In this document: one piece after another, positions 13,079 to 18,826 of the stretch | Numbering within the stretch: position 1 is the first letter of the stretch | Layout: each line of letters opens with the position of its first letter | Assembly (NCBI GenBank): GCA_907163075.1 | Contig: CAJQTY010000001.1 | Span: forward strand, 1,178,001 to 1,242,000 | DNA length: 64,000 nt | Source of the DNA: an uncultured Rhodocyclaceae bacterium | GTDB taxonomy: Bacteria > Pseudomonadota > Gammaproteobacteria > Burkholderiales > Rhodocyclaceae | Reading direction: 5' to 3' | Notes under the pieces: generated by a model | The model's input: only the letters and a program-made list of their open reading frames with translations | What the model was told of the DNA's origin: nothing | Databases searched by the model: none | Position numbers and translations under genes: made by a program

Positions 13079-13468
13079 TCAGGTATTCAACGAAAGCGAT
13101 ACCTCGATCCGATCCCACGGATTTGATGACTCGCGTAATGCCACGATTGATGCAGAAACGTGACGACCCGAATCCATGAGGTGTGCGATTGTTGAGTTCT
13201 CTGCCCGGGGAACATAGCCAATCTTCACACCATCGAATTCAATCCGCACGGCGCGTGGGTCATAGGGATTATTTGGTTCACGGACCAAACCCAACGGTAC
13301 ACCTGGCATCAGCTGAGACCAAAGCGATTCGCCTTGGTGGTACTGGAACCCTGCTACCGGTGAATGCTGAAGTTCAATTGATTGCTTACCTGCTGCGCGA
13401 GCAGCAGGAGCGACAGTACTGATACCAATGAGTGCTGTAATTCGCTCAAGAAAGAATCGTCGATTCAT
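13079..13468 (-). CDS. Exported HIRAN-domain protein
   Basis: 129 residues. The N-terminus NRRFFLERI plus a hydrophobic stretch ending in AARA resembles a twin-arginine export signal, with cleavage near residue 26. The rest is one HIRAN domain (about 37-125): VAGFQYHQGE, LGLVREPNNPYDPRAVRI, GYVPRAENS. HIRAN domains bind DNA 3' ends or act as modules in helicases and nucleases. As a stand-alone exported protein the role is unknown. A 21-bp operator (13509-13529), shared with the rtcB and WYL genes, lies 40 bases before the start, so it is probably a member of the same regulon. Confidence 0.85.
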   Translation of the reverse strand: MNRRFFLERITALIGISTVAPAARAAGKQSIELQHSPVAGFQYHQGESLWSQLMPGVPLGLVREPNNPYDPRAVRIEFDGVKIGYVPRAENSTIAHLMDSGRHVSASIVALRESSNPWDRIEVSLSLNT

Positions 13469-13508
13469 GGCTGCCTCCTATTCGATATCGATTCAGCCTA
13501 CATGGGGT

Positions 13509-13529
13509 GTGGCTCAAATATTGCGCCAC
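13509..13529. promoter_or_regulatory. WYL-regulon operator, copy 1 (HIRAN gene)
   Basis: GTGGCTCAA-ATA-TTGCGCCAC, an inverted repeat with 9-base arms and one mismatched pair. It lies 40 bases upstream of the HIRAN start and matches the copy before the WYL gene at 19 of 21 positions and the copy before rtcB at 18 of 21. Confidence 0.75.
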
Positions 13530-13541
13530 CCACAGATCATT

Positions 13542-13712
13542 TCACCTCGGCATCCAGAGATAGCCCTGCAACCACAACCGTCTCTCGATATCCTGATCGA
13601 CTTGCGGTGGCGCCTCGCCTGACCAGGCACGCCGAGTAATCAGAATGTCCAGATCGGCATCCTCGTCGCCGAAACGCATCACCGTGGCGCGCACCGAGCT
13701 ATAGTCGAAACT
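13542..13712 (-). pseudogene. C-terminal remnant of an unrecognised gene, truncated by an IS
   Basis: The minus strand reads SSVRATVMRFGDEDADLD then ILITRRAWSGEAPPQVDQ and ends LWLQGYLWMPR. Composition and lack of stops suggest genuine coding sequence. The open frame continues upstream to 13796, but that part overlaps what looks like the left end of an IS256-type element, so the native gene is cut near 13700-13715. It ends 73 bases before the HIRAN gene on the same strand. Family not recognised. Confidence 0.45.
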
Positions 13713-14001
13713 GGTGTATGACCCAAAAGAGATGCGGGGCTTGATAAGGAGGCGTGCCTCTGCCGAAAATTGATTATCGAGATCGATTGACAGCAATCAC
13801 GGAGGACACGCCATGACGAAGGATACGAAGAACGGAAACGCGGAGCAAACGGAAATGGGGCTGTCGCTGGAAGAATTGATCCGGCGCGGCGCGCGGGAAC
13901 TGACTCAGAAAGCCATCGAGGTCGAGGTAAGGGAATTGTTGGCCGACTACGAGAACGTCAAGATGCTGGGCGGACAACGCGCAGTCGTCCGGAATGGCTA
14001 C
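13700..14001 (+). mobile_element. IS256-family insertion sequence remnant (left end and transposase N-terminus)
   Basis: An ATG at 13813 with a strong ribosome site (GGAGGACACGCC) starts MTKDTKNGNAEQTEMG, then LSLEELIRRGARELTQKAIE and RAVVRNGY, the conserved N-terminus of IS256-family transposases (about 400 residues when intact). The homology stops after codon 63 at 13999-14001, exactly where the rtcB stop codon (13998-14000) begins. The upstream bases at about 13700-13812 resemble the left terminal region. The right part of the element is gone, apparently in a deletion ending at the rtcB stop. Confidence 0.8.
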
Positions 14002-15194
14002 CCCTTCACGCAAACCACTTGCTTCAGGGTATGTAGCGTTTCGGTGAGATCCTTCTGGTTCTCCATCACAGCATCAATATCCTTGTAGGCGCCGGGGATT
14101 TCGTCGATGACGCCACTGTCCTTGCGACAGATCACCCCATCGGTCTGCCGCGCGAGATCGGCTTCGGTGAACTGCTTTTCGGCCGCAGTGCGGCTCATCC
14201 GGCGGCCGGCACCATGGGCGCTGGAAGTAAAACTTTCCGGGTTGCCCAAGCCGCGAACTATGTAGCTGCGCGCCCCCATGCTGCCCGGGATGATCCCCAT
14301 GTCGCCTTCGCGCGCCCGGATAGCGCCCTTACGGGTTACCCAGACATCCGCGCCGAAGTGATGCTCCCGAGCCACATAGTTGTGATGACAGTTCACCACC
14401 TCACTGGTGACATCGAAGGGTGGCAGGTGGCGCTTGAGTGCCGCCAGCACCAGATCGACCATGCATTGCCGGTTCTGCAAGGCATATTCCTGCGCCCAAT
14501 GCACCGCCTCGACGTAGTCGTCGAAATGCTCGGTGCCTTCAGGGAGGTAGGCGAGATCACGATCCGGCAACTGGATCATCCAGCGCTCCATGTCCTTGCG
14601 GGCCAGCTGGATGAAGTATCCGGCCATCGCATTACCAATACCGCGACTCCCCGAGTGCAGCATGACCCACACCTGATTGGACTCATCCAGGCAAACCTCA
14701 ATGAAGTGGTTGCCACCGCCGAGGGTGCCGAGTTGCTTGACCCACTTGGTCGTGCCGCAGATGGTCTTTTCCAGCGTCGGATGCTTTTGCAGGATTCGAC
14801 TCAGACCCGTTGCGAACGGCAGGGCTTGATCCTCGAACGACCGTCGGTTGTTATGCATGCCTCGACCAACGGGAACGTCCCTGCTGATCTGGTCGAAGAC
14901 CCCCTTCAAGGATTTTTCGTCCAGATCAGTGGCCGTGATGGAAAGCCGACATGCCACCATGCCGCAGCCAATATCGACGCCGACTGCAGCAGGAATGATG
15001 GCCTTGTGGGTGGCGATCACTGATCCAATCGTCGCCCCAATGCCAAGATGGACGTCGGGCATGGCCGCGACGTGATGATGAATGAAGGGCAGGCTGGCGA
15101 TATTGGCCAGCTGCTGCTTGGAATTGTCATCGACATCGTCGGTCCAGATTTTGACCGGCACTCTCTTGTCGGTCAGAACTTGCTTGATCGGCAT
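13998..15194 (-). CDS. rtcB: RNA-splicing ligase RtcB
   Basis: GTP- and Mn-dependent ligase joining RNA 2',3'-cyclic phosphate or 3'-phosphate ends to 5'-OH ends, used in RNA repair. 398 residues (E. coli 408) with an intact C-terminus VVCVKG. Metal ligands include Asp74/Cys77 in GVDIGCGM and the His in GGGNHFIE; the guanylylated His lies in SSAHGAGRRMSR. E. coli rtcBA is controlled by the sigma-54 activator RtcR. Here a WYL-domain regulator gene lies 73 bases upstream on the same strand instead, and no rtcA or archease is present. A copy of the shared operator stands 54 bases before the start. Confidence 0.96.
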   Translation of the reverse strand: MPIKQVLTDKRVPVKIWTDDVDDNSKQQLANIASLPFIHHHVAAMPDVHLGIGATIGSVIATHKAIIPAAVGVDIGCGMVACRLSITATDLDEKSLKGVFDQISRDVPVGRGMHNNRRSFEDQALPFATGLSRILQKHPTLEKTICGTTKWVKQLGTLGGGNHFIEVCLDESNQVWVMLHSGSRGIGNAMAGYFIQLARKDMERWMIQLPDRDLAYLPEGTEHFDDYVEAVHWAQEYALQNRQCMVDLVLAALKRHLPPFDVTSEVVNCHHNYVAREHHFGADVWVTRKGAIRAREGDMGIIPGSMGARSYIVRGLGNPESFTSSAHGAGRRMSRTAAEKQFTEADLARQTDGVICRKDSGVIDEIPGAYKDIDAVMENQKDLTETLHTLKQVVCVKG

Positions 15195-15248
15195 ACGTTA
15201 CTCCCCTTCACTGTTCCATTCACCAGTGCGAGTATTGTCGAGGAGCAA

Positions 15249-15269
15249 GTGGATCAAATACTGCGCCTC
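15249..15269. promoter_or_regulatory. WYL-regulon operator, copy 2 (rtcB)
   Basis: GTGGATCAA-ATA-CTGCGCCTC, a weaker copy of the shared inverted repeat. It overlaps the stop codon of the WYL gene and lies 54 bases upstream of rtcB, suggesting that rtcB has its own regulated promoter in addition to read-through. Confidence 0.6.
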
Positions 15270-16260
15270 ATGAATTGATCAGATAACAACCGTGGTACAT
15301 CCCGGTCAACGCCGACACCTCGTCGGCTACAGTCCGACGCAGCGACGCGGGCGCTTCGACCTCGACATGTCGTCCGTGGCGCAGGATGTCCATCAGCAAT
15401 TCCCGCTCATCTGAATAAGGCACGCGCAGGCGGTAGCTGCCATCGGGAAAAACTTCAGACTGTTGTTCCCGATGCCAACGCTCGGACTGAACCCAGCGCG
15501 CACGTTCTGGTGAAAAGCGCAGCACGGCCCATGCCTTGGCTTGGCCGCCAAAGATGCCGTAGGCCGAAGAGTAGTGGGCATCCAGCTTGGCCACCGCCAC
15601 ATTGCGCGCTTTCTCGCGCAGCACCTTCACCCGCTGAATGGCATCCACCGAAAAACTACGCAGGTCGTTGCGCAGATGGCACCAGGCATCCAGATACCAG
15701 TTATCGCGGTAGTGGATGAGGCGTTGCGGCGAGATCGTGCGGGTATTGGTCTCGTTTCGCCCACGGTTCCAGGCATCGATCTCGATGCGCTTGCGTTCCA
15801 GCAATGCGATGGTGATATCGGTGAAAAATCGAAGCTCCACGGTGCGCTTGGCCATCGACAGCAGCCGCACCCGCTGCGTGATTTCCGAAGCCGAATGGCC
15901 GGAAGATTCCAGCAACGCGGCCAGGCGCGCCTGCAAAGGAGCAACGTGAGACGACAGGATGCCGGGTTCAAGGTCGCCCAAAAGTTTGTGGGCGGCCAGA
16001 AGCGCGTAGAGTTCACCGGCCGAAAACCACAGCCCGGGCAATTCGTAAGCTGGGCCCGTGGCCTGGATGCTCTCGAATCGATACCCCCCGGCATCGCGAT
16101 CCCAGACGATGGGCGCGTGGAGGCGGTCACGCAGATATTCCATGTCACGCTTGAAAGTGGCGCGCGACACGTCGAGCACTTCCAGAAACACCTCGATCGG
16201 CACCACGCGCCGTTCATGGAGCATTTGGTCGATTTTGTAGAAGCGCTCGGTGCGGTTCAT
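15268..16260 (-). CDS. YafY-type transcriptional regulator with HTH and WYL domains
   Basis: 330 residues: N-terminal winged HTH (about 1-60; MNRTERFYKIDQMLHERR, SRATFKRDMEYLRDRL) and a WYL domain (about 135-215) with the diagnostic DNWYLDAWCHLR, then the C-terminal WCX region. WYL domains bind nucleic-acid or nucleotide ligands and control DNA-damage, CRISPR and phage-defence genes in other bacteria. The gene leads rtcB on the same strand. The near-palindromic operator 28 bases upstream is repeated before rtcB and the HIRAN gene, so I infer that this protein autoregulates and controls all three. Confidence 0.93.
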   Translation of the reverse strand: MNRTERFYKIDQMLHERRVVPIEVFLEVLDVSRATFKRDMEYLRDRLHAPIVWDRDAGGYRFESIQATGPAYELPGLWFSAGELYALLAAHKLLGDLEPGILSSHVAPLQARLAALLESSGHSASEITQRVRLLSMAKRTVELRFFTDITIALLERKRIEIDAWNRGRNETNTRTISPQRLIHYRDNWYLDAWCHLRNDLRSFSVDAIQRVKVLREKARNVAVAKLDAHYSSAYGIFGGQAKAWAVLRFSPERARWVQSERWHREQQSEVFPDGSYRLRVPYSDERELLMDILRHGRHVEVEAPASLRRTVADEVSALTGMYHGCYLINS

Positions 16261-16288
16261 GGGGGCTCGTGATGAAATTAGGATTGTA

Positions 16289-16309
16289 GTGGCTCATATT
16301 TTGCGCCAC
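16289..16309. promoter_or_regulatory. WYL-regulon operator, copy 3 (WYL gene)
   Basis: GTGGCTCAT-ATT-TTGCGCCAC, 28 bases before the WYL start. On the minus strand the operator is directly followed by TACAAT (rc of 16283-16288), a possible -10 box, so bound regulator would sit between -35 and -10. Confidence 0.75.
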
Positions 16310-16584
16310 ACTGGCGAGATAATGCCATCTGCACGGCAAATAACAATAGACAGGTCGATTTTGTCCGCTCAAACCGTCACGCTCAGCCAGAGCCATTATT
16401 TGATTCCCTTGTTGTTCGCATTATGCGAGACAGTTTGGCTTGAGGGATAGTACGGAATTAATAATCAACTGCACCCTGACGCCAGGCTGCCCGAATCGTG
16501 AACGAAAAAAAACCAGTCAGGAAAATTTCGACTGGTTTTTATGATGACTGTTGTGAATCTTGCCATCTGGACCACTTGGAAAGA
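16310..16584. other. Spacer upstream of the WYL gene
   Basis: No gene seen. It contains the terminator of the small membrane protein genes (16511-16537); the rest has no recognisable feature. Confidence 0.5.
16511..16537 (-). terminator. Intrinsic terminator of the small membrane protein genes
   Basis: Stem AACCAGTC / GACTGGTT with an 11-base loop. On the minus strand it is followed by a run of T (A8 at 16505-16512 on plus). It lies about 50 bases after the stop of the second small gene. Confidence 0.8.
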
Positions 16585-17337: not shown

Positions 17338-17465
17338 CAAAAGACCGGATTTATCGGCATTGATTTATATTCACAGACTGGCCTGAAAGCCGCGTATTTA
17401 CTGGCTTTAAGACTAAGGCATCGTTTTCTTGTGTTGCTTCGCGTTGATAGATATACTGTGTTTTT

Positions 17466-17495
17466 GCCTACACAGTGCCTACATGGCGCCTACAC
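17466..17495. repeat. Three 11-bp-phased direct repeats before the integrase
   Basis: GCCTACAC, GCCTACAT and GCCTACAC begin at 17466, 17477 and 17488, spaced one helical turn apart. They end 14 bases before the integrase start. Possible arm-type integrase sites or an operator on one face of the helix. Confidence 0.55.
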
Positions 17496-17509
17496 GGAAG
17501 GAACGAGCG

Positions 17510-18826
17510 ATGAGCAAGCAGGAGAACTTCACGGTTGGCCGGGTTGCTTCCTTCAAATGCGAAGCGGGCAAAAATCAAAGCATCTTCTGGGACGGAAAAA
17601 CGCCCGGCCTTGGTCTGCGCGTAACGAGCGCCGGCACAAAGTCTTACATCTTCGAGACTCGCCTAAACGGTAAGACGCTGCGGATAACGATTGGCGACGT
17701 TCGGACCTGGGGAATTGATGCGGCGCAGACCGAAGCGACCCGCCTTAAAGCAATGGCCGACCAAGGGGACGACCCGCGCCAAGTGAAGGCCGAGAACATG
17801 GCCGCAACCGAAGCGAAGCGGGAAGGTGCCCGCAACGCCGAAGCGCCCGCGATAGACGCATGGCAAGCCTACATTGCCGCCAGACAAGTGAAGTGGAGCG
17901 CCAGCCATAGCCGCGACCATGCGACGGTGAGCAAGGCCGGAGGGGAGCCGCGCACAAGGGGCAAGCGCAAAGGCGAATCAAACAAGACGCAACCCGGCGC
18001 GCTGCTGCCGCTGCTGACGCTGCCACTGGCACAGATTGACGCCGACCGCGTGCGGGCCTGGCTGAAAGACGAAGCCCTAACCCGCCCCACTCACGCCCGC
18101 CTTGCCTTCGGGCTGCTGCGTGCGTTCCTGAACTGGTGCGCCGACCGCCCCGAGTACCGCGCCCACACTCACGCCGACGCCTGCGCTTCCCGCCTGTCCC
18201 GCGACGAACTGCCGAAGAAAGCCGCGAAGGACGATTGTTTGCAGCGCGAGCAATTGCCGCTCTGGTTTGAGCATGTGCGCAAACTGGGCAACCCTGTTCA
18301 TTCTGCCTACCTACAAGCCCTGCTGCTGACCGGCGCGAGGCGTGAAGAACTGGCCGGCCTGCAATGGGCAGACGTAGATTTTCAATGGCAAAGCCTGACC
18401 ATCAAGGACAAGGTGGAAGGGAGCCGCACTATCCCGCTGACGCCGTTTGTCGCTTCGCTGCTGGCTGCTCTGCCGCGCCGTAGTGAATGGGTGTTCTCAA
18501 GCCCCGCCGCCGCGTCTGGCCGACTCATGGAGCCGCGCATAGGACATAACAAGGCTTTGACCGCTGCGTGCCTTCCTGCGCTGTCCCTGCATGGCCTGCG
18601 CCGTTCCTTCGGCACGTTGGCCGAATGGGTTGAAGTGCCAGCCGGGGTTGTTGCGCAAATCATGGGGCACAAGCCTAGCGCCACCGCAGAGAAGCACTAC
18701 CGCCGCCGACCGCTCGACCTGTTGCGCATGTGGCATGTCAAAATCGAAGCTTGGATTTTGGAGCAGGCCGGGATCGAATTCGCGCCAGTACAAGCCGGTT
18801 TTCGGGTAGTTGCCGGTAACACCTAA
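17510..18826 (+). CDS. int: Tyrosine-type site-specific integrase (phage/island)
   Basis: 438 residues from ATG 17510, chosen for its ribosome site (GGAAGGAACGAG) and because the protein then starts like P4-type integrases. The N-terminal arm-binding domain runs to about 90 (GLGLRVTSAGTKSYIF), then the core-binding domain and catalytic domain. Catalytic residues: Arg277 in LTGARREEL, His361 and Arg364 in LHGLRRSFG, His387 in MGHKPSATAEKHY, and nucleophile Tyr397. It lies 172 bases from the distal attachment repeat and reads away from it. It should recognise the tRNA 3' end. No excisionase gene is evident. Confidence 0.96.
   Translation: MSKQENFTVGRVASFKCEAGKNQSIFWDGKTPGLGLRVTSAGTKSYIFETRLNGKTLRITIGDVRTWGIDAAQTEATRLKAMADQGDDPRQVKAENMAATEAKREGARNAEAPAIDAWQAYIAARQVKWSASHSRDHATVSKAGGEPRTRGKRKGESNKTQPGALLPLLTLPLAQIDADRVRAWLKDEALTRPTHARLAFGLLRAFLNWCADRPEYRAHTHADACASRLSRDELPKKAAKDDCLQREQLPLWFEHVRKLGNPVHSAYLQALLLTGARREELAGLQWADVDFQWQSLTIKDKVEGSRTIPLTPFVASLLAALPRRSEWVFSSPAAASGRLMEPRIGHNKALTAACLPALSLHGLRRSFGTLAEWVEVPAGVVAQIMGHKPSATAEKHYRRRPLDLLRMWHVKIEAWILEQAGIEFAPVQAGFRVVAGNT

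Follow-up and report, generated by a model that had tools for sequence, protein, structure and literature searches.

A stretch of 64,000 nucleotides (nt) from an uncultured Rhodocyclaceae bacterium (GCA_907163075.1, contig CAJQTY010000001.1, positions 1,178,001 to 1,242,000), here called the window, contains between positions 13079 and 16309 three minus-strand genes for a WYL-domain regulator, the RNA ligase RtcB and a small HIRAN-domain protein, each preceded by a copy of a near-palindrome of 21 bp. This candidate operator is real and conserved beside WYL genes, it is part of a portable operator-promoter unit, and the genes form a defence-type island, in which RtcB is a local passenger as judged from the comparison of loci. 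The control site, to which the WYL protein most likely binds, probably activates defence genes that can be swapped, in many cases along with a small, apparently exported HIRAN protein. On balance, the window seems to hold a reduced WYL-controlled defence cassette, in which a WYL dimer would activate the genes with the operator-promoter unit in response to a nucleic-acid signal, and of which the cargo would be exchangeable.

The operator copies and their genes

An earlier reading, made from the letters of the window alone (the sequence-only reading), had described three near-palindromic sites, and these are present at 13509-13529, 15249-15269 and 16289-16309. When counted by eye, copies 1 and 3 agree at 19 of 21 positions and copies 1 and 2 at 18 of 21, as that reading had it, and its protein families are those returned by hmmscan (PF08797 for HIRAN, PF01139 for RtcB, PF13280 and PF25583 for WYL). 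The spacing to the start codon also agrees, with 40 bp for HIRAN (ATG at 13468), 54 bp for RtcB (15194) and 28 bp for WYL (16260). In the list that follows, N8 and N9 are spacers of 8 and 9 bp between operator and -10-like hexamer, Tat stands for twin-arginine translocation, and the C3 island is a fuller paralogous island with four operators on contig C3 of the same genome (locus L009). Protein lengths are in amino acids (aa).

13079-13468, minus strand: small HIRAN protein, 129 aa, with a Tat-like start (PF08797, 3.2e-19)
13495-13500, minus strand: -10-like TAGGCT, N8 from operator copy 1; hexamer and spacing are identical before HIRAN in the C3 island and in Sulfuritalea (L152)
13509-13529: operator copy 1, GTGGCTCAAATATTGCGCCAC, 5' of HIRAN, 40 bp to the ATG
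13542-13745, minus strand: remnant corresponding, by sequence match, to the last 67 residues of the 355-aa protein of the C3 island
13998-15194, minus strand: RtcB RNA ligase, 398 aa (PF01139, 1.3e-132), 1196/1197 nt identical to the C3 copy
15234-15239, minus strand: -10-like GACAAT, N9 from operator copy 2 (rtcB), fitting only the relaxed form [TG]ANNNT
15249-15269: operator copy 2, GTGGATCAAATACTGCGCCTC, 5' of rtcB, overlapping the WYL stop codon; junction of the rtcB and WYL blocks relative to the C3 island
15268-16260, minus strand: WYL-WCX transcription regulator, 330 aa (PF13280, 3.7e-19; PF25583, 1.1e-17)
16275-16280, minus strand: -10-like TAATTT, N8 from operator copy 3; an additional TACAAT abuts the operator
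16289-16309: operator copy 3, GTGGCTCATATTTTGCGCCAC, 5' of WYL, 28 bp to the ATG, identical to the C3 copy between WYL and hsdM

The pattern of the sequence-only reading was found at 13 places of the 5.2-Mb genome with up to 2 mismatches; all six places with at most 1 mismatch fall in the window or in the C3 island, as does, in the latter, one of the seven with 2. In a shuffle test, 4 of 100 shuffles reached the window count of four matches (up to 3 mismatches), so that the count is only modestly rare, and the pattern had itself been derived from the sites. The real support, therefore, is conservation at other loci.

Conservation beside WYL genes and spacing to the promoter

Homologues of the WYL protein were found in 96 of 369 genomes of the class at 1e-40, the genome under study included. 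The 120 loci compared comprise 40 neighbourhoods from class genomes (one of which, L047, holds a third WYL gene of the genome under study) and 80 from named genomes, out of at least 582 relatives; one locus is counted twice, since L182 and L045 are one contig. Sites were scored over the 16 arm positions of GTGGCTCA-N5-TGAGCCAC, and the single arm base that varies could be T or G. At 39 of the 120 loci (28/80 and 11/40), a site scoring 14/16 or better is found no more than 200 bp from the WYL gene, as compared with none for the reversed motif (0/80 and 0/40) and with 10/1326 and 3/695 windows drawn at random from these loci. Grouped by the identity of their WYL to the window protein, site-positive loci number 3/9 above 65%, 10/14 at 55-65%, 23/71 at 50-55% and 3/26 below 50%, and the operator adjoins WYL genes of approximately 50% protein identity with differing neighbours. 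The palindrome is often complete, or nearly so, at other loci, while in the window one arm is degenerate. The recurrence of the site bears out the small local regulon with one operator that had been proposed. Raw motif counts were set aside, with 24 of 369 genomes matching with at most 1 mismatch versus 19 for the control (counted by eye) and, at 13/16, 62 sites in whole stretches versus 29 for the reversed motif; only the placement adjacent to WYL and the spacing to the -10 element are telling.

It could be argued that the three sites descend from one old promoter unit by duplication and are relics without a common regulator. The wyl and HIRAN genes of the two islands are indeed paralogous, and the window island is without some of the C3 genes. 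However, this explanation is very improbable in view of the presence of the operator beside WYL genes only about 50% identical and with different neighbours, and of the distinctness of 61 of 67 site contexts after collapsing those similar to each other.

Downstream of the operator, TANNNT occurs 28 times at 8 bp and 20 times at 9 bp on 418 sides (window and L009 included), the average for 40 spacings being 3.7. When contexts at least 70% alike over 111 bp were collapsed, leaving out the window and L009 and reducing the WYL-flank sites from 67 to 61, TANNNT was found at N8 or N9 25 times on 122 sides, as compared with 1.0 on average for each of the other spacings (binomial P about 3e-20). At sites that follow a WYL stop codon, the -10-like hexamer points toward the next gene in 16/31 cases and backward in 0/31. 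No -35 excess was found, the best match at 16-18 bp averaging 2.00/6 versus 2.33/6 for control hexamers. All seven operators of the two islands have [TG]ANNNT at N8 or N9 toward a gene, in the strict TANNNT form in 4/7; on either side, the relaxed form accompanies 2/15 control sites and 3/31 other sites of the genome. A fixed distance from the -10 in the lack of a -35 is thus found both statistically (25/61 non-redundant sites) and in the genome's own islands. Such tight spacing is what an activator touching RNA polymerase needs, and the proximal half-site would centre near -25, as reckoned from the hexamer. The layout resembles that of DriD and PafBC, which are activators responsive to single-stranded DNA (ssDNA), more than that of the repressor CapW.

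That the WYL protein is instead a BrxR- or CapW-like repressor, which would block RNA polymerase when bound to the operator and be released on infection, has to be taken seriously, although it is doubtful. BrxR binds inverted repeats of 11 or 10 bp that are 5 bp apart, and that of E. fergusonii represses (PMC9122601, PMC9122589); CapW binds palindromes of 19-24 bp over the -10 and represses CBASS (PMC9122588). The candidate operator has the same 5-bp arm spacing as in BrxR and overlaps the promoter. However, repression requires neither a -10 spacing held at 8-9 bp nor the absence of a -35 excess. Furthermore, phmmer against solved chains ranks PafBC (2.4e-14) far above CapW (7tb5, 9.9e-4), with PafC (4e-10) and 8tp8 (1.1e-5), which is DriD (PMC11804915), in between; BrxR of Acinetobacter (7T8K, PMC9122588) is not among the eight matches at 1e-3, entries named simply 'WYL domain-containing protein' not having been traced one at a time. 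Assignment to the BrxR family was rejected on this lack of a match, and assignment to CapW on its poor match and on a site that stops 8-9 bp short of the -10-like hexamer rather than lying over it. PF13280 and PF25583 score above the cut-off, making the protein a member of the WYL-WCX group (HTH_11 is found in the C3 paralogue at 1.8e-4, below the cut-off). As to the ssDNA-binding residues of the WYL domain, R174, Y189 and R201 align with Arg, Tyr and Arg of PafC, and S204 and A207 take the place of its R201 and R204.

Autoregulation by the WYL protein, as had been envisaged, is doubtful. A 16/16 site lies 5' of WYL in the window and in L009, but in only one (L156, 14/16) of the seven closest loci scored: in the others (L152, L153, L155 and L157-L159) the best score 5' of WYL is 8-12 of 16. 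Moreover, the L009 site also faces the divergent hsdM gene, and it is this copy that copy 3 of the window matches. The low scores in the closest relatives indicate that, among these, the conserved place of the operator is before the cargo or HIRAN, not before wyl.

Islands, cargo and the HIRAN and RtcB genes

The C3 island contains a divergent hsdM gene, WYL (98% identical to the window protein), four Mks/Wadjet-like genes, rtcB, the gene of the 355-aa protein, HIRAN and a gene for a protein of 229 aa. One operator lies between WYL and hsdM, and the SMC gene, rtcB and HIRAN are each preceded by another. Window positions 13998-15268 match L009 6165-7436 and positions 15249-16390 match L009 13808-14949. 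These blocks have 20 of the 21 operator bases in common, which places the junction inside the operator, and between them the Mks-like genes are absent from the window. What distinguishes the islands is thus a segment with operator repeats at its ends, and these repeats seem to delimit a swappable cargo slot. While wyl is 90.9% and HIRAN 60.1% identical at the nt level, rtcB shows 1 difference in 1197 nt, which suggests that it was recently exchanged. Among loci with WYL proteins 76-98% alike, the content of the slot between WYL and HIRAN varies (ORF, open reading frame):

L009: Mks-like genes, rtcB and the 355-aa gene
Window: rtcB and the remnant of the 355-aa gene
L152: ORF of up to 721 aa, without a Pfam or NCBIfam family
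L153: 91-aa hydrophobic protein
L155: empty

The cassette has as neighbours a serine recombinase gene and two ParB/RepB-like genes, in L009 (16-3282) by Pfam and in L152 (13848-17211) by likeness, as if the two cassettes rode the same kind of mobile element. These genes, along with the joining of the two islands within the operator, would suit sites that serve recombination or recognition in a mobile island instead of transcription. This is the explanation that we find hardest to credit, as the sites stand 28-55 bp before start codons in both islands and keep a one-way spacing to the -10-like hexamer. A tyrosine integrase (PF00589, PF13356) is found at window 17429-18826, 1.1 kb past operator copy 3. 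The approximately 250 bp between rtcB and the 355-aa remnant (13746-13997), which hold the start of a plus-strand ORF (13813) and give no Pfam match, are perhaps an insertion remnant.

The Mks/Wadjet-like operon encodes an SMC-like DUF3584 protein (4.8e-210), an MksE-like protein (3.4e-10), a 405-aa protein without a family and a DUF7281 protein (2.1e-23) with a weak toprim match; PADLOC JetB and JetC match it only at about 7e-4, hence the name Mks/Wadjet-like and not Wadjet. It was discarded as a conserved companion of the operator, JetC relatives (24-30% identity) being found in 17 other genomes of 398, 14 of which were fetched and have no 14/16 site. The 355-aa protein, without a Pfam, NCBIfam or PADLOC family, was likewise discarded as a marker: no relatives were confirmed in viral contigs, with one weak plasmid match and one 45% match in L055. 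A protein of 220-240 aa follows HIRAN or adjoins WYL in L009 (3913-4602), L153 (12111-12803), L155 (11414-12130) and L156 (216-941); it is predicted to be helical (low confidence), with a hydrophobic stretch near the C-terminus and no family above the cut-off. For the L009 protein (orf229, 229 aa) the model (predicted local distance difference test, pLDDT, 60) has no fold match, the best PDB match being at E 0.36.

Assignment of the small protein to the HIRAN family agrees with PF08797 (69 bits) and with a model (pLDDT 80) for which Foldseek returned 3k2y (1.4e-6) and the HLTF HIRAN domain 4s0n (3.9e-6). Its description as exported finds support in the Tat-like start MNRRFFLERI...APAARA, as judged by eye, from which Tat export may be supposed. 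A HIRAN-domain gene is near WYL in seven of the eight closest named loci (L152-L159, 67-88% WYL identity); L154 is the exception, with no HIRAN in the 10 kb upstream and a contig that ends 92 bp after WYL. A twin-arginine start, RRxFL or similar by eye, was recognized in 7/15 HIRAN proteins (window, L009, L152, L153, L155, L215, L058), the other 8 being fused, differently begun or devoid of a twin-arginine stretch. The operator is 41-43 bp before HIRAN in L152 (16/16), L153 (15/16), L086 (16/16; HIRAN without signal) and L155 (12/16). Literature searches combining HIRAN, twin-arginine and WYL gave nothing relevant among the matches listed, and those combining the operator letters with WYL gave nothing relevant by title or start of abstract, neither being a claim of absence from print. 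PcfJ-like proteins adjoin the site in L242 (2001-2021) or WYL in L159 (3372-5402), where the protein has a HIRAN domain.

The identity of RtcB is supported by PF01139 (443.5 bits) and by the HGAGR and VDIGCG stretches, which align in sequence with TTHA1785. Its place in the regulon holds for the window and the C3 island, where the site precedes rtcB, and was not found at the other loci examined. The co-occurrence of the motif with the three families, which the sequence-only reading had set out to be looked for across genomes, extends to WYL and, in the closest loci, to HIRAN, but not to RtcB, which is present in 0/120 WYL loci. A close RtcB was found in 37 of the 369 class genomes, own genome included, and 29 non-own loci were fetched (L123-L151, up to 1.5 kb on each side, some shortened by contig ends): 0/29 have a site at 13/16 or a related WYL. 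RtcB as a conserved core was therefore rejected. Wider stretches of five RtcB loci and three plasmid loci have no related WYL and no 14/16 site, with 13/16 sites in 4/8. In a fourth plasmid locus, L083, about 4.9 kb separate rtcB from one 14/16 site, near which no gene starts, and in the Methylomonas plasmid L080 a WYL gene, missed by tblastn with the window WYL at 1e-4, is 2.6 kb from rtcB. No rtcA was recognized among neighbouring ORFs, no profile search for it having been made.

Other defence or repair genes accompany the WYL genes elsewhere. In L153, genes for an RlaP RNA-repair nucleotidyltransferase and a HEPN protein are upstream of WYL, and cas3 genes follow in L186, L216, L220 (Pfam) and L189 (by likeness). 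A recurrent divergent gene for a 172-200-aa protein with a stretch like LLFKLSAxxRCR is found upstream of WYL in L049, L052, L226 and L231, the L226 copy being without a Pfam family. In the genome under study, the palindrome occurs with up to 3 mismatches at 38 places versus 16 for the reversed control; 7 of the 38 are in the islands, and 23 of the other 31 are inside ORFs of at least 100 aa (8 outside), as are 13 of the 15 control places read (of 16). Two of those outside precede defence genes and have a -10-like hexamer at N8 on the side of the genes. One is a 14/16 palindrome 265 bp away from an McrBC pair, its hexamer being GAGAAT (L238:4001-4021, G000:C1:2344238-2344258), and the other a 13/16 palindrome at 44 bp from a type I-E cas3-cse1 operon, its hexamer being GAAAAT (L239:4654-4674, G000:C1:567272-567292). 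These sites are leads only, since the hexamer frequency at the 31 other sites is not above that of the control.

Proposed mechanism and known WYL regulators

In the mechanism that we infer, from operator binding, activation and ligand to Tat export, recombination at the repeats and the role of every protein, a WYL-WCX homodimer would bind the 21-bp palindrome 8-9 bp before the -10 of promoters without a recognizable -35. The trigger would be a nucleic-acid signal of infection or damage, ssDNA being a first guess from DriD and PafBC, both of which it activates (PMC11804915, PMC12340889). WYL so triggered would recruit RNA polymerase and jointly switch on the genes with the operator-promoter unit: HIRAN, rtcB and perhaps wyl in the window, and in the C3 island also the type I methylase gene and the Mks/Wadjet-like operon. 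The HIRAN protein, exported by the Tat route, might bind DNA ends outside the cytoplasm, and RtcB might mend RNA cut during the conflict. With cargo bounded by operator copies, its exchange or loss could take place through recombination between them.

Several observations weigh against this mechanism. A site of at least 13/16 near WYL is lacking in 61/119 WYL loci; the geometry is directed toward WYL at only 5/30 sites 5' of WYL; the relaxed [TG]ANNNT form was adopted after GACAAT had been seen, and the link with RtcB is seen in one genome only. As to the protein, R201 and R204, essential in PafC, correspond to S204 and A207 if chain numbers are equated with the published ones, and the recognition helix SxATxKRD, nearly invariant in 37 operator-positive loci, is largely kept in 61 negative ones, so that it does not discriminate. 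Finally, the defence-linked WYL proteins BrxR and CapW are repressors (PMC9122601, PMC9122588).

If true, a conserved operator with activator-like geometry would add a second logic to that of the described defence-linked WYL repressors, the signal that turns defence on could be tested with one short promoter, and the operator could be used to seek defence modules; an exported HIRAN would be in an unexpected place for a DNA-end binder. A wider generalization, which we regard as rather unlikely, would see in a beta- and gammaproteobacterial WYL clade damage-triggered activators of immunity, with a single dimer, a single operator and a -35-less promoter unit open to any defence module. Restriction, condensin-type defence, CRISPR-Cas and RNA repair would in this way be fired together genome-wide, with a Tat-exported HIRAN DNA-end binder as a frequent partner.

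Among known systems, the Rtc RNA repair operon (RtcR, RtcB, RtcA) also places an RtcB ligase under a ligand-sensing regulator, although here WYL, and not the CARF protein RtcR, is beside RtcB; a nucleic-acid damage response independent of RtcR, as had been suggested, would fit the geometry held in common with DriD and PafBC. Pairs of ARPP with WYL and of ARPP with HIRAN are published (PMC9503650), and L042 has WYL, operator, ARPP-1 and an ADP-ribosylglycohydrolase; the part of that paper available describes no common operator and no Tat-type HIRAN. The BREX and CBASS repressors BrxR and CapW share with the present case a regulator gene beside defence genes and a palindrome, with arms 5 bp apart in BrxR. 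They differ in the overlap of CapW sites with the -10 (PMC9122588) and in their low (CapW) or missing (BrxR) phmmer match. PafBC of mycobacteria is a heterodimer with a non-palindromic site (PMC6789036), as opposed to one protein, without the two essential PafC arginines, and a palindrome here; still, it is the best match among solved chains, with PafB binding at -24 (PMC12340889), contacts near -24/-26 and sigma adaptation (PMC11804915, PMC12340889). DriD of Caulobacter, a WYL activator of a non-SOS damage response, has a different operator, ATACGAC-N7-GTCGTAT, targets repair genes rather than a defence island (PMC12340889) and is a more distant phmmer match. However, its 20-bp pseudo-palindromes keep a constant distance to weak -10 elements, with poor -35 matches (2, 2, 1, 1 and 1 of 6; PMC12340889), which is also the layout of the operator-promoter unit described here.

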